A stretch of DNA of 50,541 bases, from NCBI GenBank assembly GCA_937858825.1, contig CALMAI010000033.1, positions 1 to 50,541 on the forward strand, written 5' to 3'. Below are positions 19,750-49,449 of the stretch, one piece after another (position 1 is the first letter of the stretch; each line of letters opens with the position of its first letter). Position numbers and translations under genes: made by a program. This DNA is from an uncultured Candidatus Peregrinibacteria bacterium (GTDB lineage: Bacteria > Patescibacteriota > Gracilibacteria > UBA1369). The notes beneath the pieces are model-generated. The model was not told where the DNA came from. It saw only the letters and a program-made list of their open reading frames with translations, and ran no database searches.

Positions 19750-22700
19750 ATGAAACAATTACGCATTCTTCAACTCCTGATCGTTTCACTCGGTGCGGTT
19801 TTAAGTCTGTCTATAGCTCCACCAGCATCAGCGGCAACACTCACCGTTAATGAGTACACAGATGGAGCAGAATCAGGAAATACATCTGGAACATGTAATC
19901 TTCGTGAGGCTATTCAGGCTATAAACAATGGAGCAGACATTGCAGGGGATTGCACAGCAACCGGAACATATGGGACTGCCGACGAGATCCAGTTTACAGG
20001 AACCTTTCCGCAGACCTACACGCTCACATGGGATGCAGGAGGAGGGACTGCGCACCCACTTATCGTTGATAACGACGTTACGATTACCGGTCCAGGCTCT
20101 GGAAGCCTCACTATTGATGGAAATGAGGAGGCTCAGGTCTTTTTCCTAGGGAAAGAATATACCGGGACAGGAGTCACATTCGACCTTTCAGGAATCACTC
20201 TGGCCAATGGAGACGCAACGGTGGCATTTGGATCATATGGGTACAATGCCGGAGAAGGAGGTTTAATCTACAGCCAGGATGGTGGAGATATAACCCTGGA
20301 TGACGTCATTTTAAATAGCGGTAACTCCGCAGGCGGAGGAAATATCTATATTGGAGCAAACTCCACAGCGACAATCAATGATACACAAATCATAGATGGA
20401 CAGTCGTTATTTGGTGGAAGAGGGGGAGGAATTTATATAGGAACCGGATCAGAGGTAACCATCACAAATTCCATCATTAATGGGAATACAACGGCAAGCC
20501 AGAACGGAGGGGGAATTTATTCTGATGCAGTACTCCTGGAAATACGAAATAGTACAATAAGCAACAATCTAACAGATACGAATAACTCTGATTTCGCCCA
20601 AGGAGGAGGGATCTTTTCTGATACGCAGGCAGGTAGCGAATTTATACTGGTGGATAGTCGGGTTTTCAACAATTTTGCCCCAACCGATGGAGGAGGAGTT
20701 CTTACAGATGCAGATTCAATTTTCATAGATGGAACAGAAGTGAGTGGTAATACAGCGGATGCCAGCGGAGGTGGAGTAAAAATCGGCGGGAGTAATGCAG
20801 TAATCATCAATTCAACACTCAGTGGGAACCATGCTGGGTCGGAAGGTGGAGCCTTTAATCTCGTCGGAACAGGGTTTGTCTATTTCATCCACAGTACAAT
20901 CACTGCCAACACCATTACAAATCAGACCCGGGGAGCAGGGCTTCATTTTGCGAATAGCGGTAATATGCACCTTATTGGGACAATTTTGGCAGAAAACAAT
21001 ACAACAGGAGACAACGACGACTGCTTTACTTTTGACACCCCGACCATTACGTCAGGAGGATACAACCTTATTGGTGTGAATAACGGATGTTCAGCATTTT
21101 TTACACCGGATGGATCAGACATCGTTGGAACATCAGCTTCACCGGAAGCAGCAAATCTTCAGGCTCTGGCGGACAATGATGGACCTGATTCACCGACAAC
21201 AACCCCCCAAACACATGAGGTCACAGTAGCATCAACCAATGTATGGGAAGCAATTCCAGCTGCAACATGCACGAACACATTTACCGCCGCCAACTACGGC
21301 CCGGGAGGGAGTGTAGTCGATACCACAGCACATCCATTTGGGACAAACGTCCTTGCCGAGTTCGCGGCTATCACTCTCCAGGACCAAAGAGACTATCCCC
21401 GCCCTGGAATGACCGATTGTGAAATTGGGGCATTCGAAAATGCAACATTGGCAGTCTACGATTATGGTGACGCCCCAGATTCATACGCAACACTCACTGC
21501 ATCAACAGGTGCATTCCACACGATCGATGCAGATCTTCTTATGGGAACAGCTGTCGATGATGAACTGGATGGACAACCAACAGCATCAGCAGATGGAGAT
21601 GACCTCAACGGAACAACCCCGGACGATGAAGATGGGGTAACCTTTTCAACTCTCGCTGAGTCAAATAGCGGGACTGCGGATGTTCAAATCATAAATAACA
21701 CAGGAGGAAACGCCTACCTTCAGGCATGGATCGACTACGACAGCAATGGAGCATTCGACGCTGGAGAGCAGGTTGCTACCGACGTTGCAGCCAACGCATC
21801 TGGAACAATAAGCATTAATATATCCCCTCCACCAGGCTCAGCAGGAACCACATATGCCCGTTTCCGGCTGACTCCAACAATGGGACTTGGATCAAGTGGT
21901 GATGGAGGAATAGGAGAAGTGGAAGACTATCAAATTACTATCAACAATAGTGATTCAACAGTATCATCAGGTGGTGGAGGTGGTGGAGGTCGATCCACCC
22001 CGCTGCAGATCCCGCAACCATCAGAAGATCCACCGGAAGAGTCCCCGGAAACCCCACAAGACCCGGAAGAATTAATCGAAGCCGCGATTGAAAAAGTTGC
22101 GGAAGCGCCACCACGACAACTTGTCCGCGTAAAGGACGACCTGGTTCATACTCAGGTCTGGCCACGAACCGGCGTCGACGCCACTATCTCATCCGCTTTG
22201 GCACGAGTGTACGGAGCAACATCTCCATTCAGTGATTTGGACATAAACCATCTCTATTTTGAACCAACAGTGGTTCTCTATCTGCAAGGAGTTGTTGAGG
22301 GATATCAGGATGGAACTGTTCAGTTGGAGCGTCACATATCGCGTGTCGAAGCATTGAAGCTCATCCTCTACACCACAGAATCCACTATTTTCGAAGATAA
22401 CCGCGCAATTTTCCCAGATACAGAAGAAGGAGCCTGGTATCAGCCATACCTCAATACAGCCCTGTATTTTGAGCTCATTGGAGGTTATGAAAACGGCAAT
22501 TTTGGACCAAATGATGATGTTACCTTTGGTCAGGCTTTCAAAATGATAAGTCAAATACTGAAATTTACCGTTTCAGAACAGGAGCAAACCGAACAACATT
22601 GGGCAGAAAAATACGCTCACGAGCTCCGCAAAAGAAATATCATCCCTCCAGAACTGAACAGCAATGAGCTCTACGATCAGCCAGTAACACGCGGCCAACT

Positions 22701-23178
22701 CTTTGCACTTATTTATCGTGCAATCATGTTTGTCGATCACGATCACGAAGCCTTCCTCGATACCATCGAATTAAGTATTCCAAAATTGAATATCAATAAC
22801 ATCCCAGTCCAGAGAACAGTGCTCAGCACAACCGCTATCTGGCTCAGAGATATTATTGATAGCACCGGCTTTTACGAAAATCCCCTTCCGGAAAAGAACG
22901 GACAATTGGTTATCTTTGGACATTCATCAAAATATATTTGGGATCCAAACACTTTTGGAACAATTTTCCGCCCATTTATCAACGATCTTAATGTTGGGGA
23001 CACGGTAGAATTGAGCATAGCCCGAACCGTCCACACATACGAAATTACGAACAAGGAAAAAGTACCGGAAGAAAATATCGACAATCTCAAAAATAATACC
23101 AGCGACCTCATTCTGTTTACCTGCGATCTAAACATCACGCAGCGATGGGTCTTTTCAGCAAAGGAGATCACACAATAA
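19750..23178 (+). CDS. beta-helix/GEVED/SLH surface protein with C-terminal sortase-like domain
   Basis: An 1142-aa secreted multidomain protein. Signal peptide at 1-28 (ending PPASAA). A CSLREA-type start (TCNLREAIQAINNG) leads a right-handed beta-helix rich in GGGIY-type turns to about residue 560. A GEVED module follows (about 570-735: DYGDAPDSY, WIDYDSNGAFDAGEQ, GEVEDYQITI). A glycine run and Pro/Glu linker (740-790) come next, then three SLH motifs (about 824, 886, 950: FSDLDINHLYFEP, GVVEGYQDG, PVTRGQLFALIYRA). The last 140 residues resemble a sortase: IELSIPKLNI, VIFGHSS (His1058), LNVGDTV, LILFTC (Cys1125) and QRWVFSA (Arg1132), the complete His-Cys-Arg triad. No transmembrane anchor is present. 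Probably a wall-bound adhesin that carries its own transpeptidase. Confidence 0.88.
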   Translation: MKQLRILQLLIVSLGAVLSLSIAPPASAATLTVNEYTDGAESGNTSGTCNLREAIQAINNGADIAGDCTATGTYGTADEIQFTGTFPQTYTLTWDAGGGTAHPLIVDNDVTITGPGSGSLTIDGNEEAQVFFLGKEYTGTGVTFDLSGITLANGDATVAFGSYGYNAGEGGLIYSQDGGDITLDDVILNSGNSAGGGNIYIGANSTATINDTQIIDGQSLFGGRGGGIYIGTGSEVTITNSIINGNTTASQNGGGIYSDAVLLEIRNSTISNNLTDTNNSDFAQGGGIFSDTQAGSEFILVDSRVFNNFAPTDGGGVLTDADSIFIDGTEVSGNTADASGGGVKIGGSNAVIINSTLSGNHAGSEGGAFNLVGTGFVYFIHSTITANTITNQTRGAGLHFANSGNMHLIGTILAENNTTGDNDDCFTFDTPTITSGGYNLIGVNNGCSAFFTPDGSDIVGTSASPEAANLQALADNDGPDSPTTTPQTHEVTVASTNVWEAIPAATCTNTFTAANYGPGGSVVDTTAHPFGTNVLAEFAAITLQDQRDYPRPGMTDCEIGAFENATLAVYDYGDAPDSYATLTASTGAFHTIDADLLMGTAVDDELDGQPTASADGDDLNGTTPDDEDGVTFSTLAESNSGTADVQIINNTGGNAYLQAWIDYDSNGAFDAGEQVATDVAANASGTISINISPPPGSAGTTYARFRLTPTMGLGSSGDGGIGEVEDYQITINNSDSTVSSGGGGGGGRSTPLQIPQPSEDPPEESPETPQDPEELIEAAIEKVAEAPPRQLVRVKDDLVHTQVWPRTGVDATISSALARVYGATSPFSDLDINHLYFEPTVVLYLQGVVEGYQDGTVQLERHISRVEALKLILYTTESTIFEDNRAIFPDTEEGAWYQPYLNTALYFELIGGYENGNFGPNDDVTFGQAFKMISQILKFTVSEQEQTEQHWAEKYAHELRKRNIIPPELNSNELYDQPVTRGQLFALIYRAIMFVDHDHEAFLDTIELSIPKLNINNIPVQRTVLSTTAIWLRDIIDSTGFYENPLPEKNGQLVIFGHSSKYIWDPNTFGTIFRPFINDLNVGDTVELSIARTVHTYEITNKEKVPEENIDNLKNNTSDLILFTCDLNITQRWVFSAKEITQ

Positions 23179-30266: not shown

Positions 30267-30806
30267 CTATTCAGCTGCATCGTGACGCTGTGAGTCAAAG
30301 TACTCACGGTATTCACGATAAATACTATTAAGCTTTTGAGCCAAGGAGTTGTCTCCATGGCAAAGCTCCTCGACCTTCTCTTCAAAAGTAAAACTACCGG
30401 AGAGCGTTGTTTGAGCCTTTGCATCAAGGAGAGCAAAAACAAATCGATCCACTTCTACCTCGGTTGGACAGTCATATTTGTTCCGGGCCACCTCCTTTTG
30501 ATCTTCAAGCGAAAGCGCATCAAAATCATCTGGATGAGTGTCAATATAGAGAGCTTTAACCTTCTGTAAAAACCGCTCATATGCGACATAAGAAGGCATA
30601 CCATTACGCACCTCCATATCAAGGAGTTGAATAATTGGATCAAGTTTTTGAAAATCATCGAACGTCAGATCATCGACAGATTCAGGAATAAACCTGTCAT
30701 GTTTTGCAACCTCCTGGAGAAAGCTTTGACGCGCATCTTCATTCATATCCTGCCAGTGAGCAACAAAACCTTGCCAGTCCATTGATGAGTGTGAGAGTGA
30801 TTCCAT
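30267..30806 (-). CDS. hypothetical helical protein next to the giant gene
   Basis: A 179-aa acidic, mainly helical cytoplasmic protein (WQDMNEDARQSFLQEVAKHDRF, DDFQKLDPIIQLLDMEV, YVAYERFLQKVKALYI). No signal peptide, membrane segment or known motif. It has its own promoter, TTGATC-17-TATAAT, whose -35 box overlaps the end of the 1894-aa gene. Same strand as the giant gene and immediately downstream, so it may work with it; that is only proximity. Confidence 0.7.
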   Translation of the reverse strand: MESLSHSSMDWQGFVAHWQDMNEDARQSFLQEVAKHDRFIPESVDDLTFDDFQKLDPIIQLLDMEVRNGMPSYVAYERFLQKVKALYIDTHPDDFDALSLEDQKEVARNKYDCPTEVEVDRFVFALLDAKAQTTLSGSFTFEEKVEELCHGDNSLAQKLNSIYREYREYFDSQRHDAAE

Positions 30807-30826: not shown

Positions 30827-30855
30827 ATTATAAATGTAAATGGGGGATAGATCAA
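30827..30855 (-). promoter_or_regulatory. promoter of the 179-aa hypothetical
   Basis: TTGATC (30855-30850), 17-bp spacer, TATAAT (30832-30827) on the minus strand. The -35 overlaps the TGA stop of the giant gene. Confidence 0.72.
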
Positions 30856-33800
30856 GCTGCCTCCTTTTTCTCCGGTTTTTGACTTCCTTCGGATGGTTTT
30901 CCTCCATTTCCTTCTTGTCCACGGTACTCACGAACTTTAAAGAGAGATGCTGGTGGTTCAGATGCCTTCAAACCATCCCTGAATTCGTTGTGTTTTACTT
31001 CAGCCTGCCCTGTGAGTTTCACTTCACCAACTGGTGCCGAACCTTCAGATGGTTTTGAACGCAATTGTGAAGTAGCATCTCGAACAATACCATCTACAGA
31101 AGTTTTACCATTCGGTGAAATTGCATCCCGAACCGTTGTACTCAAAGATCCAAGTTGCCCCTCCATATAAGTCTGATGTTGGGCAAAAGTCATTGGTTGA
31201 CCATCAATTTTTGGGATCGCAGCTGAGTCAAAATAATAAACACGTAGTTGACCACCACCAGATCGGACGACAGCACTGGCGCCAGGGAATTTCGATTTCA
31301 GTTGAAGGGCAAGGGCTGACATAGCGCCATCGGTAACCGCATATCCACGTTGGGCATTAATTGCTCCAGTATTGTGAATATCAAATACAAACTCACGCAT
31401 CATTTGTCGTTCTGGAGGGATTTTTTCTCCCTTTTGATTACGCAACCAGAAATCAGCATCTTCAGCAAACTTCGCCGGCCGGTCTACGCCAGTCTCTGGA
31501 TCACTAAACTTGCGCTGGTTCATAAGAGCAATTGTCTTATCATACTGAGCTTTCAGCTTCAGCAGTTTATCAACCTCCGCACGAGACGGTTTCTCTTGAG
31601 AAGACATCTTATCAATCTGGGCCTTGATCTGAGCAAGCTTTGCCGCTGCTGTCTCTTTCAGCTTAAGAAACTCATTAACTTGTGTAGGTTTTTCATCTTC
31701 AGCAGCTTTCGCATGTTCAGCAGCATCTTCAGGATTAGGTAAATTTCCACTCTCATCAAATGGACTTTTCACCATTTCAATATCAGGAGAACCCTTATTC
31801 TCCTTCGCTTTATGCAGCGCATCTTCCAGAACCTTATCCAGGAAGAACTTCATATCAGTATGATCGAAGTTTCGACCCTTAAAAGATGGTACTTCAACAC
31901 CAGCCATCTGGAAATCCATAAGTGTTACATCCCCAGGATTTTGGCGAATAGCCATAAAGCGTTTCCCAATACTGGATCCATCCACACCAGAAATCGGAGG
32001 AATATCATGAGCATTAACACGACGCAGTGCAAAATAAAGAATGAGCTGTTCCTCAGCTGTTCTATTCTTTTTCTTTAAAATTTTTGCCAACCCATCCTTG
32101 GTCAAAACATCAGCATTACTTCCACGAAGACCTTCTGGAAGAAGATCTTTAAGAGCACCACTCTCGGTAAAAGCATCAAGATTATCACGCAAAACATTGG
32201 TTAACGGCGGAGACCCTTTATCCAAAGCATCAATTTTTTTACTTACAAAATCGGCAAAATTTTTATTGTCACGGAGAGGATCAGCAGAATTATTCGCCTC
32301 TGGATATTCTTTTAAAAACTCAGCCTGCAAACCACGGGCATCACTTCGAAAACCAGCCAAAATTTTGGCATTCCCCATATTTCTCTGATAATCCTGCCAT
32401 GTTCCTTCCAGATTATACTCTTTCTTAAGGGCATTGAATGCCGCCTCTGTTTCAATACCAAAAAATTTCTTCGCCAGTTGATTCTTAATTCGATCCAAAA
32501 CTTGAGGTCCATTCACATCTTTGCCTGGGACAAATTCAGATTTAATAACAGCAGCAAGATCACGAAGATACAGGTCAACAAGATTGGCATCTCCACCCTT
32601 CACTCGAAGCGAGAACTCATTTGAAGGACCCATATTTCCTACATCGCCAAAGTACATTTCAACCTTTCCATCCGCGCCGGCATGGAGAATAACAATCTCA
32701 TCGCCACCATGCTTTACAATAATCGGACCATCTGATTGCAGTTTGGCGTGATCATTTAAATAAGTCGTCATCTCCGGTGAGTAGGCAAAATTCTTTGTCT
32801 TATAATCAGAATGAAGATCCACTTCTTTCATCTGGCCAGGATGATCAGGGTCAGGAATAAGAATCTTACGACTTTCATTAAAAGATGCATGAACAGCAGC
32901 ATCCAACTCTTTGGCATTTATCTCGGCCTTCTCATACTTTGCAACGAGCTGTTCAACCTGTTGCCGCTTCTCCTTTGGCAAATCCATGTCCTCCAATTTT
33001 TTCTTGAATCCATCAATATCAGCTGATGGCTTTGAAGTTTGTGTAGACTTGCTCTTCCTAGTAAGGACTTCAATCCTTTGACGAGTTTTCTGCGGCAATG
33101 CAGCCAGAACCTCGGCCGTAAAACCTTTTACAACCTTGCCATTAATAACCATATTGCCATCTGGAGTAACATGGGCGGAGCGAATAGAATCAGGATCATT
33201 AAATTTGATTCCAAGCTCACTTTCCACTTCTGCAGCAACTTTTTTGTTATAGGCCTCTTCAATCTTATTCCGGCCTTTCCTTGCACCACCCTCAAATTTG
33301 CCATGCGCCCAATGCATACCAGTAGAGGTAATGGCATTTTCAAGCAAAGAACGAAGAACAAAACCTGTATCTACAAAATCTCCGTGTCCCTTCGCATAGA
33401 GACTCGCCGCCTCAATTCCAGTACCAGCAAGACCCGACATAGATTCCATTGCAATCAATGCCTTCATTCCACGGCTTCCGCCCGCCTTAAGAGCGTTTCC
33501 AAAAATCTTGTTTCCAGCTGTTCCAATTCCCCGGAACGCAAGTGCTTTAAAAATACTCTCCACCAAATTCGCCGAAGTAATTGGTGTTGATTGGCCGGTA
33601 ATAATCCCTTCGGCAACAGTACTTCCTCCCAAAAGAAGCGTTCCTTCTACCGTGACACTTAAGGCTCCAGCTCCGACTCGTGACAGAATAATAGCGCGCT
33701 GCATTTGCGGGGTAAGAGCCTTCCAGGCCTGAGATCCAAAGCGGATTGCCTGCACACCACCCTCCTCAATAGCAAGAATTGCTGCTTCAGCTCCCGCAGC

Positions 33801-36536
33801 ACCTGTTCGCACCAACAAACGTGTCGCCAACGAACGAAAAGCCACTTTCCCAAACTGTGCGCCAACCGCACCCGCACCAAATCCAATAGGGAGGGTCGCA
33901 ATCGTCAACGCCAGATTCTCTTTGGCAGCATCTTTAAATTGATCATACTCTTCGGCACTCATGTACTCATAATTCCACGGTTTATACCATGAAGTATCCT
34001 TATCCTCTTCATACGGCGACCAATTATTATAAAGACTCAAAGCTTCAGTAGAATCAGCAAGTCCCTGCCCGGTCATATGGTGCCGCAATTCACGGGAATA
34101 ACGCTTTTGGAGCCACATATTAAAAACAATCTGTTCCGCCTGCTTCCTCAGCTGATCCTCCGGAATATCAGGATTATCTTTTTTAAATTCAGTCAGGTAG
34201 GCAGATGCCGCTTTCCGTACATTATCCATAATCATCTTATCGCCAAGCATTTCCCGCATAATTTTCTCCTGACTCACATCTTTGGCAGCCTTGCGGTACT
34301 CATCTGCAAGAGCTTTGTCCAGATACTCACGGGCTTTGTCATACCCCCGGAGATCACGAAGTTCTTTGGCAAATTTAATGCATGTTTTTTTCCGGACCTC
34401 TGGATCCGTCGAATTCATCCCTTCATAAAGTTCCGAAAATTTATCAATTACATTGTTTTTCGGATCAAAAGCATTCTTCTGCAAATACAAATGAACGCTG
34501 GCTTTCAACTTGGCAAACTCTTCATCATAATCAATCAATTCACCTTTTTGAACCTTGGATTTCAACCCACGAATACCATCAACAATCACATCCACTTCCG
34601 GCCCTGTAATCCTGAAATCGATTTTTTCACCATTCTTACCATATTGATCCTGAAGATCCTTTTTCTTCCAGTACTTCACGTCTTCAAGCAAATCATCCAG
34701 CTGTTTCACCTTGGTTAAACCAATCAAATGAAGCACTTCACGGGCCTGACTGATCTGTTCTTTGTGGAGTTCTTTGTCTCCGCTCCCTTCCGCCCACTTA
34801 ACATAGGCAGCAAGACTTTTCGAAGCTGCATTAATGTCCCCAGCTCCATACTGTTTTAATCCTTCATAAAAATCTCCAGAATATTTTACAAGTCCGATTT
34901 TTTCCTGCGCATCAGCAAGAGCGGCAGAGTTCAGTTCACGTTCTTCAGCAGAGAAGGTTTGACCAACATAAGCTTCGAAAGCTGCCACTGCCTCTGCATG
35001 TTTTCCAACTGCCAAAAGCCGTAAACCTTCAGCATACTTTTTGGATTTCTCTCCCAAAACTTCAGAAATTTGATCAAAATTACCGGTGGATTTTGAAAGT
35101 TCCACCATAGCTTTTTGAGTTTGAGCCTTCACCTCAGCCTGGTCTCTCGCAATAATACTCTCAACAGCCATACGCACCTCCTGTTTTTTATCATCTGAAA
35201 GAGCATCATAGGCTGCGTTGAAAGCATAAATCTTGCCATCCTTTTCCTCCCCCAGAAAAGTGACGTAACTAAAAATATTAGGCCCAACCTCACCAAGTGA
35301 AGCCATGCTCTTTCGTGTCTGACGATTCACCTCAATCTGACGGACCCGATCATCAATCTCTTTAATCTTGGCCTGAACTTTTCCATAAATATCTCCCTGA
35401 AGCTTGTACTGTGTCTCCTTATTTACAAAAGGGGAAACAGTCATCTTAAGCGTTAAATAAGCTGAAAGAAGCGCCTTTTCATTTTTCTCATAATCCTCCA
35501 GCTCCTTATCATTCAAATCAGTACGCCTTGATAAAGGTTCATACTTATCCCACAAAGGGCCGATAGTCTCTTTTTCTGCAGAGGCAATGTCGGCGATCAT
35601 CTTTTCCGCGGCCTTGGTCAAAGCCTCTTTTTCTGCCTCTTCAAAACTCTTTTTCAAATCTTCATAGCTGGATTTGGATTTTTCAAATTCAGTCTCAAGG
35701 TGTTTATACATGTTATTGATGTAGGCGTACGAACCTTCTTCCTTTTCATCAAAAATCTCAGCGTGAGCTTTTACAGGATCAATTTTCTCCGCCTGTGCTT
35801 CAGCCGCCCGGAGAGTTTCCATTGAAGGATTACTTTCAACAGCTTTTACAAGCGTTTCATAGGTACTGACAGACTTAAAAAAATCATTGGCAATAATATG
35901 CCGGGCTGTAGGGCCGAGTGCCAATTCATCTTTTTCCTCACCAATTTTTTTGGCCAGATCCTGATATTTTTTAACAACCTTCTTCGAATATTCACGCGAA
36001 CCAGCGGTACTTATAAACTTTGGACTTAAACGATTCAGATCACCCAACAATTTCTCTTTTGCAGAAAAAATCGTGAGCGGATCTTTTGACCCCTCACTGC
36101 TATTCAATTTCCCATTTGCCTTTTCAACCTTTGGAAGATCATCATTCTCAATCTCCTCCAAAACTTTAAATGCATCGATAGATTTTTTGAGCTGCCCCAG
36201 CTTTTTACTCAGATCACCACTCAATTGTTCCATACTCGGAACCTTTTCAGGTTTTCCCTCCTTGGCATCTTCATGAGCTTTGATAATCTCCCGTCCCCGA
36301 TCCGCCATAGACCCAAGCTGGCCGGCAATCTCTCCAGAAGCTTTTTTCAAATAAGCCTTGGCTTCAGGGGATTTCAATTTTCCCGCAGCCGTTAACATCT
36401 CTGTTTGGCCTGAATCAACAGCATTAACATAGGTACTCCGATACCTTGAAATTTCAGTCTTCGCCACTGCAGGGCCCTTAAGACTTTCAATCTCTTGTTG
36501 CTTCACATCTATTTGTCCGCCAAGTTTTTCGGTCAT
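30852..36536 (-). CDS. giant (1894 aa) helical protein with hydrophobic core block and GGDEF-like segments
   Basis: No signal peptide. Residues 1-about 800 are charged and helical with coiled coils; TPR-like units occur near residues 505-640 (LLAVGKHAEAVAAFEAYVG, YEGLKQYGAGDINAASKSLAAYV). Residues about 870-1100 are a Gly/Ala-rich hydrophobic block (TIATLPIGFGAGAVGAQFG, ILSRVGAGALSVTVEGTLLLGG) that may insert in a membrane. The C-terminal 750 residues include two diguanylate-cyclase-like segments. The first has HGGDEIVIL near residue 1276 and FGDVGNMG near 1297. The second has FVFDIHNTGAINAQRGY near 1717 and RSGGGQLRVYYF near 1758, where GGDEF is replaced by GGGQL, so it is probably inactive. 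The start overlaps the stop of the upstream partner gene (ATGA). Function unknown. Confidence 0.8.
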   Translation of the reverse strand: MTEKLGGQIDVKQQEIESLKGPAVAKTEISRYRSTYVNAVDSGQTEMLTAAGKLKSPEAKAYLKKASGEIAGQLGSMADRGREIIKAHEDAKEGKPEKVPSMEQLSGDLSKKLGQLKKSIDAFKVLEEIENDDLPKVEKANGKLNSSEGSKDPLTIFSAKEKLLGDLNRLSPKFISTAGSREYSKKVVKKYQDLAKKIGEEKDELALGPTARHIIANDFFKSVSTYETLVKAVESNPSMETLRAAEAQAEKIDPVKAHAEIFDEKEEGSYAYINNMYKHLETEFEKSKSSYEDLKKSFEEAEKEALTKAAEKMIADIASAEKETIGPLWDKYEPLSRRTDLNDKELEDYEKNEKALLSAYLTLKMTVSPFVNKETQYKLQGDIYGKVQAKIKEIDDRVRQIEVNRQTRKSMASLGEVGPNIFSYVTFLGEEKDGKIYAFNAAYDALSDDKKQEVRMAVESIIARDQAEVKAQTQKAMVELSKSTGNFDQISEVLGEKSKKYAEGLRLLAVGKHAEAVAAFEAYVGQTFSAEERELNSAALADAQEKIGLVKYSGDFYEGLKQYGAGDINAASKSLAAYVKWAEGSGDKELHKEQISQAREVLHLIGLTKVKQLDDLLEDVKYWKKKDLQDQYGKNGEKIDFRITGPEVDVIVDGIRGLKSKVQKGELIDYDEEFAKLKASVHLYLQKNAFDPKNNVIDKFSELYEGMNSTDPEVRKKTCIKFAKELRDLRGYDKAREYLDKALADEYRKAAKDVSQEKIMREMLGDKMIMDNVRKAASAYLTEFKKDNPDIPEDQLRKQAEQIVFNMWLQKRYSRELRHHMTGQGLADSTEALSLYNNWSPYEEDKDTSWYKPWNYEYMSAEEYDQFKDAAKENLALTIATLPIGFGAGAVGAQFGKVAFRSLATRLLVRTGAAGAEAAILAIEEGGVQAIRFGSQAWKALTPQMQRAIILSRVGAGALSVTVEGTLLLGGSTVAEGIITGQSTPITSANLVESIFKALAFRGIGTAGNKIFGNALKAGGSRGMKALIAMESMSGLAGTGIEAASLYAKGHGDFVDTGFVLRSLLENAITSTGMHWAHGKFEGGARKGRNKIEEAYNKKVAAEVESELGIKFNDPDSIRSAHVTPDGNMVINGKVVKGFTAEVLAALPQKTRQRIEVLTRKSKSTQTSKPSADIDGFKKKLEDMDLPKEKRQQVEQLVAKYEKAEINAKELDAAVHASFNESRKILIPDPDHPGQMKEVDLHSDYKTKNFAYSPEMTTYLNDHAKLQSDGPIIVKHGGDEIVILHAGADGKVEMYFGDVGNMGPSNEFSLRVKGGDANLVDLYLRDLAAVIKSEFVPGKDVNGPQVLDRIKNQLAKKFFGIETEAAFNALKKEYNLEGTWQDYQRNMGNAKILAGFRSDARGLQAEFLKEYPEANNSADPLRDNKNFADFVSKKIDALDKGSPPLTNVLRDNLDAFTESGALKDLLPEGLRGSNADVLTKDGLAKILKKKNRTAEEQLILYFALRRVNAHDIPPISGVDGSSIGKRFMAIRQNPGDVTLMDFQMAGVEVPSFKGRNFDHTDMKFFLDKVLEDALHKAKENKGSPDIEMVKSPFDESGNLPNPEDAAEHAKAAEDEKPTQVNEFLKLKETAAAKLAQIKAQIDKMSSQEKPSRAEVDKLLKLKAQYDKTIALMNQRKFSDPETGVDRPAKFAEDADFWLRNQKGEKIPPERQMMREFVFDIHNTGAINAQRGYAVTDGAMSALALQLKSKFPGASAVVRSGGGQLRVYYFDSAAIPKIDGQPMTFAQHQTYMEGQLGSLSTTVRDAISPNGKTSVDGIVRDATSQLRSKPSEGSAPVGEVKLTGQAEVKHNEFRDGLKASEPPASLFKVREYRGQEGNGGKPSEGSQKPEKKEAA

Positions 36537-36893: not shown

Positions 36894-36922
36894 ATTATAC
36901 CATTTTTGAGCCATTTTTTCCA
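36894..36922 (-). promoter_or_regulatory. promoter of the giant-protein operon
   Basis: TGGAAA (36922-36917), 17-bp spacer, TATAAT (36899-36894) on the minus strand, giving a leader of about 25 nt before the ATG at 36865. Confidence 0.55.
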
Positions 36923-37013
36923 GATTGAGTATCCAGAAAGATCTTCACAGAAAGCCTTAAAAAAAAGACGATTTTATGGTAAAATAAAGGGATATAGTTC
37001 TCTTTCTGCGTCT

Positions 37014-38762
37014 ATGGACGACAACACACAAAACAATCAGGAACCGCAGCAGGTAGCTCAACAGGGGCAGGCAGTAGCAGCTCCATCAGCATCAGCCGAA
37101 CCGGTTCATCAGACACAGCCAACGGTCTCTCCAGAAGAAAAACTGGGAAAAATTAACCGTGAAGCCAAAGAAAAAGCAGCAGCTCAGCGGGCACGGGAAC
37201 TTGGAATGTCGTACATCAACATTGGAACAACGCCAATCAACCCGGATCTGCTTCATATGATCGATCCGCAAGTCGCGCAAAGCGCACTCATTCTTCCATT
37301 CTACAAACTTGGAAAGAAAGTACGTGTTGCGGTTGCCGATCCGCAAAATCCAGAAACGCTTAAAGTAATTGAAGAGCTAAAGCAGCAGGGATACGCCATT
37401 AACGTAAATCTTGCATCAGATGATGGTCTGCGTGAAGCCATGAAACTCTATGAATCCGAGCAATATGTAGTCAAAAAAGAGATCGAAACCAAGCTCGATG
37501 AAGAGAAAATTAAAGCGTACGAAAAAGAGATCCAGGACCTTCAGTCACTCGAAACAAAACTTCCAACACTCACCTCCGAAGAAGCTGTATACCTCATTAA
37601 CATTGGCGCGCTCAAGACCGGAGCATCAGATATCCACTTTGAACCAGAAGAAGAAGATGTTGAAATGCGCTTTCGTATTGATGGATTACTCCACAGTATT
37701 TTCCGTATCGACAAAACCACTTTCACGAATATTGCCAACCAGATCAAGTACCAGTGTAAAATGAAGCTCAACATTACCAATGAGCCACAAGATGGGCGGT
37801 ATAGCTTTTTGGTCAACGAGCGAAAAGTGGACCTTCGTGTATCCGTTTTGCCAACCCAGTTTGGAGAAACATTTGTCTGTCGACTTTTGGATAGCCAACG
37901 TCATGTGGCCAGCTTTGAAGACATGGGATTCACCGGAAAAGCGCTGGCTCACACCAGACAGATGCTCAATATTAAACATGGAATGATCCTTATTACCGGT
38001 CCAACCGGATCCGGTAAAACCACCACGCTCTACCAACTTCTTGAAAAATTCAGCAACGAAAGCAACAAAACCATCACCCTTGAAGATCCAATTGAATACC
38101 ATCTAAAAGGGATTTCCCAAAGTCAGATCAATGAAAAGCGAGGCTACGATTTTGCAAATGGACTACGCGCCATTCTCCGTCAGGATCCGGACGTCGTAAT
38201 GATTGGAGAAATTCGTGACCTGGAAACAGCCGAAACCGCTGCTCAGGCAGCCCTTACCGGACATGTCCTTCTGAGCACTCTCCACACTAACAGCGCAATC
38301 GAAGCTATTCCCCGACTCATCAATATTGGCCTTCCACCATTCATGGTGGCACCGGCACTCGACACAATCATCGCTCAGCGCCTCGTCCGAAAATTCTGTC
38401 CGGCATGTTCGTATTCAGAAAAAATTTCGGCCGCCAAAAAAGAGGAGCTCCAAAAGAAGCTGGATCTCATTAAAAATATGCAGCCAAGCCTTGAGCTGGA
38501 AATACCGGATGAGCTTCCAACAGCTCCCGGATGTTCGGTTTGCAGCCACACAGGATATAAAGGACGTATTGCCGTAGTAGAGGTTCTGGATGTCGACAAC
38601 GAAATTAAACGGCTTATTCTCGAAAAAGCCAGTTCCACAAAGCTCATTGAAGCAGCCCGAAAGAAGGGGATGATGACCATGTACGAAGACGGAGTTATCA
38701 AAGTAATCCAGGGTCTCACCAGTCTGGCAGAAGTCCACCGCGTCACAGCAATTTCTGTGTAG
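37014..38762 (+). CDS. pilB: type IV pilus assembly / type II secretion ATPase PilB (GspE)
   Basis: A 582-aa hexameric ATPase that powers extension of type IV pili. Start at ATG 37014; the open frame upstream begins at a TTG inside promoter-like sequence (TATAGT at 36993-36998). Gln/Ala/Pro-rich N-terminus, a GspE N-terminal domain (REKAAAQRARELGMSYINI...), then the catalytic domain. Walker A GPTGSGKTT is near residue 329, the Asp box is EDPIEYHL, Walker B is RQDPDVVMIGEIRD, the His box is LSTLHTNSA. A zinc site has two CxxC pairs (CPAC near 461, CSVC near 506). Overlaps dprA by 20 bp at the 3' end. No other pilus genes are visible nearby. Confidence 0.95.
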   Translation: MDDNTQNNQEPQQVAQQGQAVAAPSASAEPVHQTQPTVSPEEKLGKINREAKEKAAAQRARELGMSYINIGTTPINPDLLHMIDPQVAQSALILPFYKLGKKVRVAVADPQNPETLKVIEELKQQGYAINVNLASDDGLREAMKLYESEQYVVKKEIETKLDEEKIKAYEKEIQDLQSLETKLPTLTSEEAVYLINIGALKTGASDIHFEPEEEDVEMRFRIDGLLHSIFRIDKTTFTNIANQIKYQCKMKLNITNEPQDGRYSFLVNERKVDLRVSVLPTQFGETFVCRLLDSQRHVASFEDMGFTGKALAHTRQMLNIKHGMILITGPTGSGKTTTLYQLLEKFSNESNKTITLEDPIEYHLKGISQSQINEKRGYDFANGLRAILRQDPDVVMIGEIRDLETAETAAQAALTGHVLLSTLHTNSAIEAIPRLINIGLPPFMVAPALDTIIAQRLVRKFCPACSYSEKISAAKKEELQKKLDLIKNMQPSLELEIPDELPTAPGCSVCSHTGYKGRIAVVEVLDVDNEIKRLILEKASSTKLIEAARKKGMMTMYEDGVIKVIQGLTSLAEVHRVTAISV

Positions 38763-42818: not shown

Positions 42819-44867
42819 ATGAATATATTCGATTTCATCAAAACCAACCGCACAATCGCACTCTACGTTGTACTTGGAATCATAGGGACAGTAGTCGCGA
42901 TTGCAGCTATCTATCTGGGAGGAAATTTGTACCAGGGAAGTTTGATCAGTTCAACACAGTTGAATCAATCACTTCAAAACGTAACGACCAATCAGCCAAG
43001 CCAGATTCAGGTCCAGACAACACCAGCCACAGGTGGACCAATAACGTGTTCCGGTACACCAAATCCGGCAGATCCAAACCAATCTGTCACATGGACAATG
43101 GTCGTGAATGAAGCCATGCTGCAGGAGGAGGATCCATACATTGATATAGAATCATATTTCTGGAGCGGGGATACATCGGGAGGAACAGCAAATTCAGAAA
43201 AAACATTCACTGTTTCATATCCAAACGGTAAAACGACAGCAACAGTAACACCAATTGTAAGCGTTCTTACTGGTCCGGACAATTATGAAGATATAGCCGG
43301 AACACCATGCTCAATCACCATCAATTCAACAACACCATCCAACACCGAAAACCAGACACAAACAGAAAATCCGGCATCACAGGCCACAATCTCTTGTACA
43401 GGATCTCCAAATCCTGGAACCACGGGACAAATTGTTACCTGGACCATCTTCGTCGATGAAGCCAAGCTTATGGAAGAGCAGCCACATAATGGCATAACCA
43501 GTTACTTCTTTTTGGATGAAGATGGCAAAGCCCCTGGGCAGGAATCAGAAAACGGAAAAGTTTTAAAAACTGTCTACCCGGCAGGCACAACATCGGCCAC
43601 GCTCACTCCAGTTGTGAACATTCTGACAGGACAAAATTTCGACACTGGAATTGAAGGAGAGGATTGCTCAATCACACTTGAAGATCCAGCTCCAGAAAAC
43701 GAAAACCAGGAAGAGGAAAACGAAACACAAACAACAGAAGAAACAGAAACCACCACCGAACTTGTCGACACGGAAGAACAGACAACAGAAACGCAAACCG
43801 GAACACTCCCGGCAAAAGACATTCTCACCTGCGCTTTTACACCAAAACCAATCATTCAGGAAAAGAACGAAAGCGCATTGGCAATTTGTGGATTGAACGA
43901 AAGCGCTCTTGTGGAAGCTTACATTATGCCGGCATCATTCACGCCGAGCGAAACAATCGACACTTCAGCAGCAATCACAACCATCCTGCCAAAAACATCA
44001 AAACAGGCAGCACCATTTAATCTGTCCTGGAATGCCCAAAAAGATAAATTCAATCAGCCGGTTGCGGAGGGAACATACACATTCGTTGTCGCAGCCAGGC
44101 CAAACAATCAATACTTACCAGATCTATCAATTCGTGAGTTTACTGTCCTGGCAAAGGAGCCGGAAGTAGAGCCAGAGCCAACTCCACAGCAAGAGCAGAC
44201 TCCGACAGAAACAACACAAACAGAAACCACAGAGCAAGATCAGCAGCCATCACCAACAACGCAAACAAGCGCATGTGAAGGAGTTGACTACCCAAGTGAC
44301 ATTGCCGGACACTGGGCTGAATCAATCATCAAATCAGCCTACGACGCCTGCCTCATCCAGGGTTACGAAGATGGAACCTTCCATCCGGATCAGGCAATTT
44401 CCAGAGCAGAAGCTGTAAAACTTGTCCTTTCACTGGCGGGAATCAGTCCACACCAGGGTTGCTACAGCGCTAACTGTGGAGCCGGTTATCCAAATAACTT
44501 TTTCAACGATATTACCGCAACATGGCAGGGACCATGGGTTCGCGCGGCATGGGATGAAGGAATTGTCGAAGGATACGGGGCAAACGAATTTGGTCCGCAA
44601 TTCGCTATAACACGTGCAGAAGCAACTGCTCTCACTGCACGAACATTCAAGGTCCCGGCACACCAGGGTTGCTACACAACCAACTGTGGAGCCGGACATC
44701 CTGACAATCTTTTTAACGACATCACAGACGCATGGCAGGGACCATGGGTTCGCACAGCCTGGGATAACGGATGGATCAGCGGCACATCAGCCAATCGGTT
44801 CGAACCAAACCGACCAATCACCCGAGCCGAACTCTTAAAAATGGCAAAACTTGCCGCAACCAACTAA
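42819..44867 (+). CDS. SLH-domain surface protein with two tandem Cys-paired beta domains
   Basis: A 682-aa protein with an N-terminal transmembrane/signal-anchor helix (about residues 13-35, IALYVVLGIIGTVVAIAAIYLG). Two homologous beta domains follow (about 75-170 and 190-285). Each starts with a Cys in CSG/CTG-x-PNP and ends with CSIT, and shares TVSYPNGKTTATVTPIVSVLTG / TVYPAGTTSATLTPVVNILTG. A Thr/Glu-rich stalk comes next, a third beta domain, and a second Thr/Gln-rich stalk. Three C-terminal SLH motifs start near residue 490 (AGHWAESIIKSAYDACLIQGY). Between them a Cys-containing insert, HQGCY..NCGAG, occurs twice. The stop is 1 bp before the next gene, the second giant protein, so the two form an operon. 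Confidence 0.88.
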   Translation: MNIFDFIKTNRTIALYVVLGIIGTVVAIAAIYLGGNLYQGSLISSTQLNQSLQNVTTNQPSQIQVQTTPATGGPITCSGTPNPADPNQSVTWTMVVNEAMLQEEDPYIDIESYFWSGDTSGGTANSEKTFTVSYPNGKTTATVTPIVSVLTGPDNYEDIAGTPCSITINSTTPSNTENQTQTENPASQATISCTGSPNPGTTGQIVTWTIFVDEAKLMEEQPHNGITSYFFLDEDGKAPGQESENGKVLKTVYPAGTTSATLTPVVNILTGQNFDTGIEGEDCSITLEDPAPENENQEEENETQTTEETETTTELVDTEEQTTETQTGTLPAKDILTCAFTPKPIIQEKNESALAICGLNESALVEAYIMPASFTPSETIDTSAAITTILPKTSKQAAPFNLSWNAQKDKFNQPVAEGTYTFVVAARPNNQYLPDLSIREFTVLAKEPEVEPEPTPQQEQTPTETTQTETTEQDQQPSPTTQTSACEGVDYPSDIAGHWAESIIKSAYDACLIQGYEDGTFHPDQAISRAEAVKLVLSLAGISPHQGCYSANCGAGYPNNFFNDITATWQGPWVRAAWDEGIVEGYGANEFGPQFAITRAEATALTARTFKVPAHQGCYTTNCGAGHPDNLFNDITDAWQGPWVRTAWDNGWISGTSANRFEPNRPITRAELLKMAKLAATN

Positions 44868-44868
44868 C

Positions 44869-47800
44869 ATGGGAGAAACAGAAAAACACAATCCAAACCA
44901 GGAGCGTCGGCCCCACAATGAGACAGCAATCGAAAAAGCCGAACGTCTTCAAAGAGAGGCTGAAGAGGTTGGCAAAAAGAAAATCATCAGTAAATCCAAG
45001 CGTGAACGGCTCAAGCAACAGGTTGAAAACGTGGACATTCGCGAAGATCACCACTACGAATTGGGCGAATATGATGGCGCAAAACTAGAAAAAAAATTCA
45101 ACGTGGTTGAGGGAAGTGTGGATGCCACTCCATATGGGGCACGCGCAATCACCGAAAAAGTCTATAAAGACAAGTCCGAAGCGGCAGCACTCCTGGTCAA
45201 AATTTATGAAAAAGAGCAGGGAAAGGATCGTTTCACGTCCGCCACGCAGAAACTGATCGAGCAGCATCTGGACATGCTTAAAAAACTAGGGAGTCAAAAA
45301 AAATCTGTTTTTGAAAAAGGAAAAACATCAGAACAACTCTTTAGCTCCGGCGGAATCTATAACTTTGTTCTCGCATTTCAGCGTGCCATGGACGCTTTCC
45401 CTTCTACAGAGAGCTTGGAAAAAAGCGAGTGCATTTTCCATTTAAGTATTGGAGAAACGGTCACAAACAAAGATGAACGATACGTTCGCACTTTTTCCCG
45501 CAAAGAAAAAAAGCCAGAGCCAGGAGAAAAGCCCGACAAGCCAGAAGTACAGCCAGGGAAAAAAGCTGAAACACCAGATGAAGACTACCCGGACGTGAAA
45601 ATCGTCAACGGGGATTACATGATTGCCCACACCGTCTCTTCAAACATCCTTCCAACCACAAACAAGTTAGGTGAAACCATTAATATCGACCTCGACAAAG
45701 AGTCTACAAACGTCATCGACAGCTATACCAGACTTGGCATCATCGCTATGGTTGAAGGACTCAATCGTCTGCCCGAGCAGGCGCGTGGTCCGGTTCTTGA
45801 AAGAGTTTTTCAAAGCATTGGAGAAAAAGATCCAGAAAAAGGATTCCAGTTGATGCAGGAGATCATCAAGAATCAAAAAGCCACTCAGGAAGAGCAGCTT
45901 TTAGAAGGATTAAAAAACAAGATCGAAAACTCACCGGAAAACGAGAAAAAATACTGGCAGGCACAGCTGGCCCTTTACGAAATGAGTCAACTCGACGAAA
46001 ACGGCTATCCAAAACTGGAAGCGTATGAGTCACAACAAAAAATGCGGGAAGCACTGTCTCTACTCGCTGATATCAATGTCGACTCACTCCCGGAAAGCCT
46101 GCAGGAAATGGCAAAAGAGCAGAAGAAATACCTGGAACTTTCTATACGCCACAGCATCGCCACAGACATGATTGCCAGCATGAACATGTCTATCGACATG
46201 ATGATGAAAGAGATGGAAGACTTTGTTGAACTCAAAGCAGAGCGTCGTGCAGACATCAAAGACGACCTGGACAATATGTGGGACAGCGACGAAGAGGTCT
46301 ACATGGCAGCAAAACATGTCATGGAAGGACTCCGTCTCCTTATTAGATACCAATATCCAATCGACGCAGAAACACAGAGCATCACCAATCCGGTGAAGTA
46401 CTACTACGACAAACTCATGAAGGGAGAGATCACGTCTATCGACATCCCGGAAGGCCAAACAGCAGTCATGACAGACGTTTTGAAAGATCATCCCACAACC
46501 ATCAAAGGTCCGGGAAAAATTGATCTCAACGAACTCTTTGTCGATAGACAGGAAGAAGCGCGCCTTTTTGAAGAGTATCAGAGCGGAAAAGAGCGCCTTG
46601 GGGAAAAAGGCATTTGGGCTTTGGCAAAAGACACTCGGGACAGTGTCTACGATACCATTGTTCCAGAAAGTATTCGTGAATATTCAAACTGGATTATTGG
46701 TGGAGTCGCAGGCGCATCAATGCCATGGATGATTCCAAGCGTTATTGCCGGAGGAGCTTTGCCGGAATACTTCGGTGGAGAACGCAGCAGCTTTATGGAA
46801 AAGCAGTCCAAAGGAGGAATCCTGCAAAGATCATCAGAAATTTTCCCAGAAAACGGTGACCTTGCCGCATTCCTTAATGAAAATCCAGGTGGAAACGCAA
46901 AAGATATTGAAAATCTTGGCGCCGTCGAAAAAATGCAGATCGAAAAAATACGACACATGTTTATAAGCGGACAGTTCTACGAAGCCCGCGCACTTTGCAT
47001 CCAGATTCTCCAAAAAAGGTTGGATGAGAAAAAGAAATTCCGCATGGAAAAAGTGGATACCACAACGCCGGAATTCCGTGAACTTATAGAAGATCATGGT
47101 GAACAAATTAAGGCACAGGCCAAGCTCCAGCTATTAGAACAGGGAATCGACGAGTCCAACTTTGCCGAACAGAACATTCCAAAACCAGGCGGCGGATCGT
47201 ACGCAAATCTGGACGAATTCATTGAAGAAAAAATGATGGATGCTCTGAAAGGGCGAGCTTACATCGACGAACAAGGTATTAACGCAAGCCACTTCACCGA
47301 TGAAGAAGTTTCAAATTTCAGCGGTTATGAAAAAAAAGCACTCGAACTTCTCAACGATTTGAATGGGGAAGGAGCCTTTGATCTAGCCGAGGAAAATGCG
47401 ATCATCGCCAAAGAGATTACGCAGCTGGTGGTTGAAATCGCTATCATCGAACTCGCGACCTGGGGTGCCGGTACGTATGCCGCGGCCGCCCTTGCCGCTG
47501 CCCGCCTTGGACAAATGGGTGTACGCGCTATGGAAGTTGCCAACATGGTTGCCAGAGCATCAGAAGTCGCGGCAAAAGTCCCACGTCTTGCATCAGCCGG
47601 AAAAACCATTGCTCACGCAACACTTTTTGTACAGGCACAAGCCACCATGCACGGCAATGCGGGAATTTTGGGAACATCAGAAGGATGGAGACAAGTCGGA
47701 TACACTGCCGCAACATTTGGCATGATGAAAGGCGTACAAGGCCTCGCTCGGGGAACAGCAGAAGGAATGGTCCGCACTGTCGAAGAAGGAGCGACTGGAT

Positions 47801-49449
47801 TTCAACGACTCCGTCACCCACTTCAACAATTGCAATACCTTAACCGTACTGCCCGCGCGAGCGGAAAATTAGGAACTGCCGGAGCAGAAGTAGCAGAAGG
47901 ATTTGTCGAAATCGGAGCTCTCCAGGGAATGTCTCAGTTGGAACAGGAGCTCGCTATCATCTACAACGAATGGACCGGTGACAAAAAAGGAGAACTGGCT
48001 GCCCGCGCCCGCGATACCAAATTCTGGGACTGGAAAGAACTTGCTCATACTGCAGCCGTCGTAATATCTCTTCGTGGTGGACGCCTGGCTGGTGAATTGA
48101 GTGGAACCAAACTAGCATCACAGAAATTTAACGGAGTAGAAAATCCAAACCAAATGGTCTCCATTGGAAAAAAACATTTCTTCCAGGGAGAGGTTATTGA
48201 TCTCAAACCAACAACCAGTGCCCAGGTTATTGGTATAGAAAAAGTTGAACTCGCACCGGATAGGATCGGAACTCGTTTACGAGTCCGTCTCTCTGATGGA
48301 ACCGAAAAAGTCGTAAAATCTGGTGATGTTGTAACCGAAAGCACAACTGGAGATATCAAATTTGGAAAACGTGCTTTCAATGCCAACGACATAGTTGAAA
48401 TTAAGAGCAACCTACCAGCGCAGGGAAAAGTGGTGGGAGTGGAAACAATCGAAACTTCCCCAAGTACATGGTTAACACGTTTCAAAGTAGAGCTTCCAGG
48501 CGGAGAAGTAGTCACAGTAAAATACGCCGACGTCATCGCACCTCCCAAAAAAGGGCCAGGAAAAATTCGCCAGTACTTATCGGAAAGAGCTGATAGATTA
48601 GGGCAAAAAATTAGCAGTGCAAAAGAGACAATTGGAGAAAAATCCAAAAGTGCCAAGCAAAGAGTAGTCGAACAATACGGAAAATTTAAAGAAATAGTCC
48701 AAAAACGATCCTTCCTCAAAAACGTGAAGGAACAACTGAAAATATCAGAAAAGGCGCAAAAAGGAGCAGAGAAAGAGTTGCAAGAGCTCAAAGATGCTAT
48801 TCAAAATGAGCAAAAAATTGATGTGGCCAAACAGGTAGAATCAATTCGCCAAAAAGCTGAAGATGCAAAGATGTCAGCGGATGCAGCAAAAGTTATGTCA
48901 GATTTAGCGCTTGCAAAAGGTGTTGCTGAGTTTAAAGGTGTTGAACTCACCGAAGCATTCCAGCCATCAATGAGCGATGCAAAAGCGGCACTTAAAGCAG
49001 AAAAAGCTGGAGAACTAAAAGGAGTGCACATGAAAGAAACATCGGATCGATATAAACAAGCCAGAAAAGCTGCAGAAAAAGCAGAAAAAGCTGCGCAGGA
49101 AGCAGAGCAAATCGGCTTAAGGTCAGTTGTGTCCGAAGTTGGTGATGCCGCTCTCAAAAAAGCTGACAGGGTTGGAAAAATCCGCACAGAAATCGAGGAG
49201 GCTATAAAAGAAAAAGATTTAGAAACAGCGAAATCAAAGCTCGAAGAAATGAAAGAAATTCATGATCAGGTCAAAGAAGATACTCTCGATGTCATGTATG
49301 CGGCTGACCAGGTGCCAACATCAGATGCTTTCAAAAAGATAAAAAAACAGGTTGTGAATGCCCGGGCTCAGGCAACCTTAGACGTGGAAGCTGCGGAAAA
49401 AGCCATAAATGGCAATCAGCCAAGTCGGTTAAGAATTGCAACCGACTAA
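44869..49449 (+). CDS. second giant (1526 aa) helical protein with hydrophobic block and repeated beta modules
   Basis: Starts at ATG 44869, one base after the SLH gene stop; a TTG start 18 nt upstream is possible. No signal peptide. Residues 1-about 600 are charged and helical. A hydrophobic stretch (WIIGGVAGASMPWMIPSVIAGGALP) lies near residue 608. Residues about 855-1090 form a Gly/Ala-rich hydrophobic block (IELATWGAGTYAAAALAAARLG, GLARGTAEGMVRTVEEGA). Two copies of a roughly 60-residue beta module follow at about 1095-1225 (HFFQGEVIDLKPTTSAQVIG and AFNANDIVEIKSNLPAQGKV). The C-terminal 300 residues are Lys/Glu/Ala-rich coiled coil. The overall plan resembles the other giant protein. No enzyme motif recognised; function unknown. 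Confidence 0.78.
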   Translation: MGETEKHNPNQERRPHNETAIEKAERLQREAEEVGKKKIISKSKRERLKQQVENVDIREDHHYELGEYDGAKLEKKFNVVEGSVDATPYGARAITEKVYKDKSEAAALLVKIYEKEQGKDRFTSATQKLIEQHLDMLKKLGSQKKSVFEKGKTSEQLFSSGGIYNFVLAFQRAMDAFPSTESLEKSECIFHLSIGETVTNKDERYVRTFSRKEKKPEPGEKPDKPEVQPGKKAETPDEDYPDVKIVNGDYMIAHTVSSNILPTTNKLGETINIDLDKESTNVIDSYTRLGIIAMVEGLNRLPEQARGPVLERVFQSIGEKDPEKGFQLMQEIIKNQKATQEEQLLEGLKNKIENSPENEKKYWQAQLALYEMSQLDENGYPKLEAYESQQKMREALSLLADINVDSLPESLQEMAKEQKKYLELSIRHSIATDMIASMNMSIDMMMKEMEDFVELKAERRADIKDDLDNMWDSDEEVYMAAKHVMEGLRLLIRYQYPIDAETQSITNPVKYYYDKLMKGEITSIDIPEGQTAVMTDVLKDHPTTIKGPGKIDLNELFVDRQEEARLFEEYQSGKERLGEKGIWALAKDTRDSVYDTIVPESIREYSNWIIGGVAGASMPWMIPSVIAGGALPEYFGGERSSFMEKQSKGGILQRSSEIFPENGDLAAFLNENPGGNAKDIENLGAVEKMQIEKIRHMFISGQFYEARALCIQILQKRLDEKKKFRMEKVDTTTPEFRELIEDHGEQIKAQAKLQLLEQGIDESNFAEQNIPKPGGGSYANLDEFIEEKMMDALKGRAYIDEQGINASHFTDEEVSNFSGYEKKALELLNDLNGEGAFDLAEENAIIAKEITQLVVEIAIIELATWGAGTYAAAALAAARLGQMGVRAMEVANMVARASEVAAKVPRLASAGKTIAHATLFVQAQATMHGNAGILGTSEGWRQVGYTAATFGMMKGVQGLARGTAEGMVRTVEEGATGFQRLRHPLQQLQYLNRTARASGKLGTAGAEVAEGFVEIGALQGMSQLEQELAIIYNEWTGDKKGELAARARDTKFWDWKELAHTAAVVISLRGGRLAGELSGTKLASQKFNGVENPNQMVSIGKKHFFQGEVIDLKPTTSAQVIGIEKVELAPDRIGTRLRVRLSDGTEKVVKSGDVVTESTTGDIKFGKRAFNANDIVEIKSNLPAQGKVVGVETIETSPSTWLTRFKVELPGGEVVTVKYADVIAPPKKGPGKIRQYLSERADRLGQKISSAKETIGEKSKSAKQRVVEQYGKFKEIVQKRSFLKNVKEQLKISEKAQKGAEKELQELKDAIQNEQKIDVAKQVESIRQKAEDAKMSADAAKVMSDLALAKGVAEFKGVELTEAFQPSMSDAKAALKAEKAGELKGVHMKETSDRYKQARKAAEKAEKAAQEAEQIGLRSVVSEVGDAALKKADRVGKIRTEIEEAIKEKDLETAKSKLEEMKEIHDQVKEDTLDVMYAADQVPTSDAFKKIKKQVVNARAQATLDVEAAEKAINGNQPSRLRIATD

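Follow-up and report, generated by a model that had tools for sequence, protein, structure and literature searches.

The DNA analysed here, referred to as the window, comprises positions 1 to 50,541 of contig CALMAI010000033.1 from the 1.3 Mb assembly GCA_937858825.1 of an uncultured Candidatus Peregrinibacteria bacterium. Its minus strand, which the initial annotation had left unnamed, carries a single uninterrupted ATG-to-stop open reading frame (ORF) at 30852–36536, as that annotation had proposed, and this frame encodes a protein of 1,894 amino acids (aa; P0001), called the giant below. The C-terminal part of the giant is an exchangeable cassette travelling with the adjacent gene, here named X1. 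The cassette includes two GGDEF-like segments, copy 1 and copy 2. The favoured reading, to which we assign a probability of about 0.5, is that of a modular giant whose C-terminal modules can be exchanged and have dedicated partners; in the window the module would be a GGDEF pair that has lost catalysis and probably binds guanine nucleotides.

According to this reading, a conserved N-terminal chassis (aa 1–1100) would take different C-terminal cassettes, each paired with a small gene for an acidic partner: the GGDEF-derived pair with X1 in the window's species, and HExxH and kinase-like modules with a second gene, X2, in a sister species. Copy 2 would most likely bind a guanine nucleotide without making cyclic di-GMP (c-di-GMP), the signal that active GGDEF domains produce, because the guanine-holding residues are kept and the metal-binding and catalytic acids are lost. 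We infer that nucleotide-bound copy 2 may switch the state of the giant or its contact with X1, giving a regulatory output. A precedent is the degenerate GGDEF domain of Caulobacter CC3396, which binds GTP and activates the neighbouring domain (PMC7288161). The features are as follows.

30852–36536, minus strand: giant ORF, 1,894 aa (P0001); open frame, homologues only in relatives from the same family
33250–36536, minus strand: N-terminal chassis, aa 1–1096, helical; conserved with the sister species, without significant Pfam domain
33312–33929, minus strand: Gly/Ala-rich, mildly hydrophobic block, about aa 870–1075; from hydropathy, composition and homologues
32967–33236, minus strand: linker, aa 1101–1190; aligns with the diverged linkers of the sister species and of locus L020
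30238–33249, minus strand: exchangeable cassette of 3.0 kb, C-terminal part of the giant plus X1; unmatched in the DNA of the sister species, between matching flanks
32502–32819, minus strand: copy 1, aa 1240–1345, helix, GGDE hairpin (1277–1280), then DVGNMGPSN (1298–1306); from four-genome conservation, shuffles and PDB profile
31032–31502, minus strand: copy 2, aa 1679–1835, predicted degenerate GGDEF domain (DPETG ... D1719 ... N1727 ... D1736 ... GGGQL at 1760–1764); from profile homology
30267–30806, minus strand: X1, 179 aa, acidic (isoelectric point, pI, 4.5); 45 nt behind the stop of the giant, inside the swapped cassette

Exchange of the C-terminal cassette

The exchange, which the initial annotation missed, was found by comparison with one sister species (G001, locus L001; about 94% DNA identity). 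From window position 39000 to 33250 (5,751 bp) the DNA identity is 93.9%; from 33249 to 30238 the sister has no DNA match, and both ends of this stretch are sharp; the match resumes before nusA, with 91.9% identity from 30237 to 26408. At the protein level, identity is 90–100% in each 50-residue interval up to aa 1100, 42% in the next 50 residues (aa 1101–1150, part of the linker) and about 20% beyond; a stretch resembling the linker is visible by eye in L019. At the same site the sister carries a different 3.6-kb cassette with a protease-like HExxH motif, a kinase-like tail and X2. The protein-kinase-like module of this tail matches Pkinase with an E-value of 9e-6, under the family cut-off, and PADLOC gives just weak kinase-type matches for it. 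The gene behind the giant is X1 in the window and the unrelated X2 in the sister. No copy of the HExxH/kinase tail was found in the window's genome and no GGDEF pair in that of the sister. The cassette is not distinguished by GC content. An assembly chimera at the junction was considered and judged unlikely, because the frame is open, the linker is homologous across the junction and, in genome G010, nusA adjoins X2 and a giant. The sister species offer a clean natural experiment, in which one gene has different tails and partners; it defines the module boundaries and assigns a partner gene to each module, so that function becomes testable.

The chassis itself appears to be under strong constraint, judging from its sequence conservation. 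Among the 353 genomes of the class that were searched, it was found only in one Peregrinibacteria family. Residues 1–1100 have no significant Pfam or NCBIfam match (best Pfam E 0.38), and no trafficking domain was recognised in them. With the whole protein as query, no Pfam family reaches E 0.1, and NCBIfam gives TIGR00254 (GGDEF) at E 0.036. The TPR-like units proposed earlier were not recovered, the TPR families of Pfam giving E-values of 0.77–1.5 (best 0.77). What had been described as a hydrophobic core block is, more exactly, the mildly hydrophobic Gly/Ala-rich stretch at about aa 870–1075, with a peak 19-aa hydropathy of 1.67 at aa 875 and a glycine plus alanine content of 29–31%; it is conserved in the homologues L019, L020 and L024. 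With this top hydropathy of 1.67, a clear membrane segment is absent from the giant. No relatives of the giant were found in viral contigs, and PADLOC matched neither the giant nor X1 to a defence system.

The stated hallmark of polymorphic toxins is that a C-terminal module is exchanged along with the gene beside it (PMC3482391), and just such an exchange is seen in the comparison with the sister. The giant could accordingly be read as a polymorphic-toxin-like effector, in which the chassis delivers the C-terminal module into another cell, be it host, prey or rival, and immunity comes from X1 or X2, which is replaced along with the module. A related group of the Candidate Phyla Radiation (CPR) is predatory and has an abundance of giant surface proteins (PMC8080830), which agrees with such a role. 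The likeness to polymorphic toxin systems consists in a shared constant N-terminal part, a variable C-terminal part and an adjacent small gene replaced together with it (PMC3482391; here in one sister pair). Unlike them, the giant has no recognised trafficking domain; the Pfam scan found no secretion or adhesion domain in it, none of the modules is a known toxin domain, and the modules look like domains used in signalling (GGDEF, kinase, phosphatase). Moreover, the modules recur across genera rather than forming an open-ended set, and X1 lies upstream of and divergent from the giant in three relatives. This explanation is considered possible, although rather unlikely, and membership in the polymorphic toxins is not claimed, since neither a trafficking nor a toxin domain was found.

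Degenerate GGDEF-like segments

The initial annotation had described, about 480 residues after a first GGDE motif, a second segment of GGDEF pattern with GGGQL in place of GGDEF, and this segment, copy 2, was confirmed. Its FVFDIHNTGAINAQRGY stretch holds D1719, N1727 and D1736 and is followed by RSGGGQL at 1758–1764. Judged by profile comparison, copy 2 is a true GGDEF homologue with its catalytic signature lost. Alignment to nine canonical GGDEF domains with hhalign gives E 2e-8. When Patescibacteria genomes were searched with a profile of the whole region, ordinary GGDEF proteins matched at the copy-2 columns with E-values down to 1e-7. Searched singly, copy 2 matches TIGR00254 with E 0.0047, at a score under the curated cut-offs, and TIGR00254 or other diguanylate-cyclase NCBIfam models are matched singly by copy 2 in the window and in both L020 and L045. 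A three-sequence copy-2 profile searched against the PDB found diguanylate-cyclase sequences in 6 of 20 matches (best E 0.027), coiled-coil matches in the same search having similar E-values; the D-x-TG, IN..YG and R.GG positions are in register in the diguanylate-cyclase matches.

In the diguanylate cyclase PleD, magnesium ions are held by D327 and E370, and the guanine base by N335 and D344 (PMC7288161). Alignment with canonical domains shows that all four copy-2 proteins have D/E, N and D, respectively, at the equivalents of D327, N335 and D344, the first position being D in the window and in G059 (L045) and E in L018 and L020. None of the four homologues retains the signature position E370; the GG(D/E)EF signature with its metal-binding acids is missing, being replaced by GGGQL in the window and GGGKF in L020, and the K332 position is G in all four. 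Since E370 is lost while the N335 and D344 positions persist, catalysis by copy 2 is predicted to be unlikely and guanine binding possible. The persistence of the guanine-contact positions also makes a sensor role plausible.

The genomic context of c-di-GMP signalling was also surveyed. No EAL domain and no over-threshold GGDEF domain were found in the window's genome, and no PilZ domain was found in the five genomes checked, which counts against a c-di-GMP-making role; active c-di-GMP signalling was rejected on these grounds. The GGDEF-type domains of the giant are probably kept as modules without catalytic activity, and no further GGDEF, EAL or PilZ domain was detected in the same genome. 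A PilB-type ATPase with an MshEN match is encoded at 36906–38762 on the plus strand, divergent from the giant; the first c-di-GMP-binding motif is seemingly absent at its N-terminus, as judged by eye. A link between the giant and this ATPase via MshEN was considered and found not to be specific, since the same neighbour stands at the sister's kinase-tailed giant and was not seen at the giant of G002 (L020).

Copy 2 is similar to the degenerate GGDEF domains of Caulobacter CC3396, FimX and Bacillus subtilis YybT, which are likewise GGDEF-fold homologues with a lost signature and some of which bind GTP (PMC7288161; FimX in PMC11656802). Unlike in these proteins, the window has two copies in an EAL-less giant, on an exchangeable cassette, in a genome without detected EAL or over-threshold GGDEF domains.

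For copy 1, the reported HGGDEIVIL near residue 1276 was located, with GGDE at 1277–1280. The GGDE and, about 18 residues further on, the F.D..N.G..N pattern are invariant in four genomes, the only ones among the 353 in which this arrangement was clearly found. None of 100 column shuffles reaches the score of the copy-1 hairpin against GGDEF, the matched stretch being just 13 columns long; the helix-hairpin profile has a single PDB match, to a diguanylate cyclase (E 0.21); and the G059 copy 1 matches TIGR00254 with E 0.0082. These results weakly suggest that copy 1 carries a GGDEF-type GGDE helix-hairpin, and homology beyond it is not significant. The alternative, that copy 1 is an unrelated GGDE beta-hairpin resembling GGDEF by chance and that copy 2 alone is GGDEF-derived, would fit the lack of any GGDEF match when copy 1 of the window, L018 or L020 is searched singly and of any significant PDB match of the long copy-1 profile. 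Given the shuffles, the G059 match and the diguanylate cyclase found by the helix-hairpin profile, we regard it as improbable. The description of both segments as degenerate GGDEF-like therefore stands for copy 2, by profile homology, and weakly for copy 1, for the helix-hairpin only.

A reversed order of motifs had also been reported for copy 1. DVGNMGPSN does come after the GGDE hairpin; its identity as the strand-1 motif of GGDEF was not upheld, as shuffles score equally well in 6 and 10 of 100 and in 89 of 200 trials, and the piece searched alone gives no GGDEF match. The profile search of each segment proposed in the initial annotation thus retrieves GGDEF domains with copy 2, weakly with the copy-1 hairpin and not with the strand-1 motif. 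One sub-threshold PDB GGDEF match (E 1.2) pairs both copy-1 pieces in swapped order. To the eye, D..N.G..N in both copies makes a circular permutation of copy 1 appealing, but this idea was dropped in view of the missing GGDEF match and the shuffles. The reversed segment order is an observation, and a rearrangement is not demonstrated.

Because the GGDE and D..N.G..N of copy 1 and the N and D of copy 2 are all invariant in four genomes, it may be asked whether the two copies together make up a single nucleotide cyclase or synthase that is still active, copy 1 supplying the GGDE and copy 2 the guanine pocket. The lack of significant copy-1 homology past the helix-hairpin and the absence of any detected c-di-GMP receptor or phosphodiesterase make this highly improbable.

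Several points weigh against the favoured reading of the giant as a modular protein with a nucleotide-binding GGDEF pair. The missing GGDEF acids and the glycine at the K332 position may abolish binding as well, and the D327 equivalent is E in two relatives. The exchange rests on one sister pair, both incomplete assemblies. X1, like X2, has no informative domain match. Single-sequence AlphaFold2 models, with mean predicted local distance difference test (pLDDT) values of 48 and 45, were not used as fold evidence.

Relatives of the giant and partner genes

The GGDEF pair occurs in the same order in three genomes besides that of the window. The same C-terminal region is present in G002 (L020) and G008 (L018), and a more distant relative in G059 (L045), from another family of the class, has a helical N-terminus and a hydrophobic stretch followed by copy 1 and copy 2, in the order seen in the window. 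The G008 protein combines the GGDEF pair with phosphatase, HExxH and kinase modules; its N- and C-terminal parts sit on two contigs and are presumed to belong to one gene.

X1 is present in 4 of 13 family genomes, namely the window's own (G000), G002 and G008, all of which carry the GGDEF pair, and G012, a 53%-complete genome in which a contig end truncates the giant. The co-occurrence of X1 with the pair gives a Fisher p of 0.014, or 0.0045 without G012, the sample being small and its genomes related. In G002, G012 and G008, X1 stands divergent at the giant's start. X2 was found in 11 of 13 family genomes, in 18 places, mostly directly behind a large ORF; the gap is 8–52 nt where measured, and others overlap. 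Several of the large ORFs preceding X2 bear kinase or phosphatase modules. G008 has both genes, X1 beside the giant's start and X2 behind its end. Members of both families are acidic (pI 4.5–6.2).

A small protein of about 118–134 aa with an SQDQNQEH motif is encoded near X1 in G002 and G008 (L020 4606–4959, plus strand; L107 973–1374, minus strand) and is possibly a third component. In the window's genome an X2-family gene (G000:C27:3658-3936, minus strand; locus L115) lies behind another large ORF on a separate contig. Further giants of 1,474–3,105 aa with weak kinase matches, each followed by an X2-family gene, were seen at L101 4261–13575, L100 7323–13613 and 1917–6338, and L099 1–5493.

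As the G008 protein holds all module types, loss from such an ancestor could yield both tails seen in the sister pair. The giant may then be an intracellular signalling scaffold, in which kinase, phosphatase and GGDEF-derived modules control the physiology of the cell itself and X1 and X2 act as chaperones or regulators, the sister difference arising by differential loss from an all-module ancestor. The strongly constrained chassis is in keeping with this, and the kinase, phosphatase and GGDEF-derived modules suit a signalling machine equally well as a toxin system. However, plain loss explains neither why X2 has given way to X1 at this very site nor why the linker diverges from aa 1100 onwards, and the scaffold is considered a tentative, rather doubtful explanation.

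A bolder proposal is an undescribed class of Patescibacteria giant effectors serving conflict or host control, with one conserved chassis, signalling-type modules replaced serially (GGDEF pair, HExxH, kinase, phosphatase) and cognate partners (X1 going with the GGDEF pair and X2 chiefly with kinase-type modules), in which copy 1 would be a rearranged GGDEF with strand 1 after the hairpin. It is offered as a speculative suggestion, on the unlikely side. Many CPR proteins of this size are without annotation. The giants of the predatory or epibiotic CPR bacteria Vampirococcus and Strigamonas, from related lineages, are likewise very long; they are described as surface or membrane proteins, whereas the window's giant has no clear membrane segment and its relatives carry signalling-type modules.

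Other genes of the window

Three surface-type proteins with S-layer homology domains are encoded at 16038–18707, 19750–23178 and 42819–44867, one of them ending in a sortase domain. A second giant of 1,532 aa without Pfam domain (44851–49449, plus strand) is 94–100% identical to its sister counterpart outside about aa 1051–1250 and the last residues, and its variable segment starts just past an Ala-rich stretch of its own.
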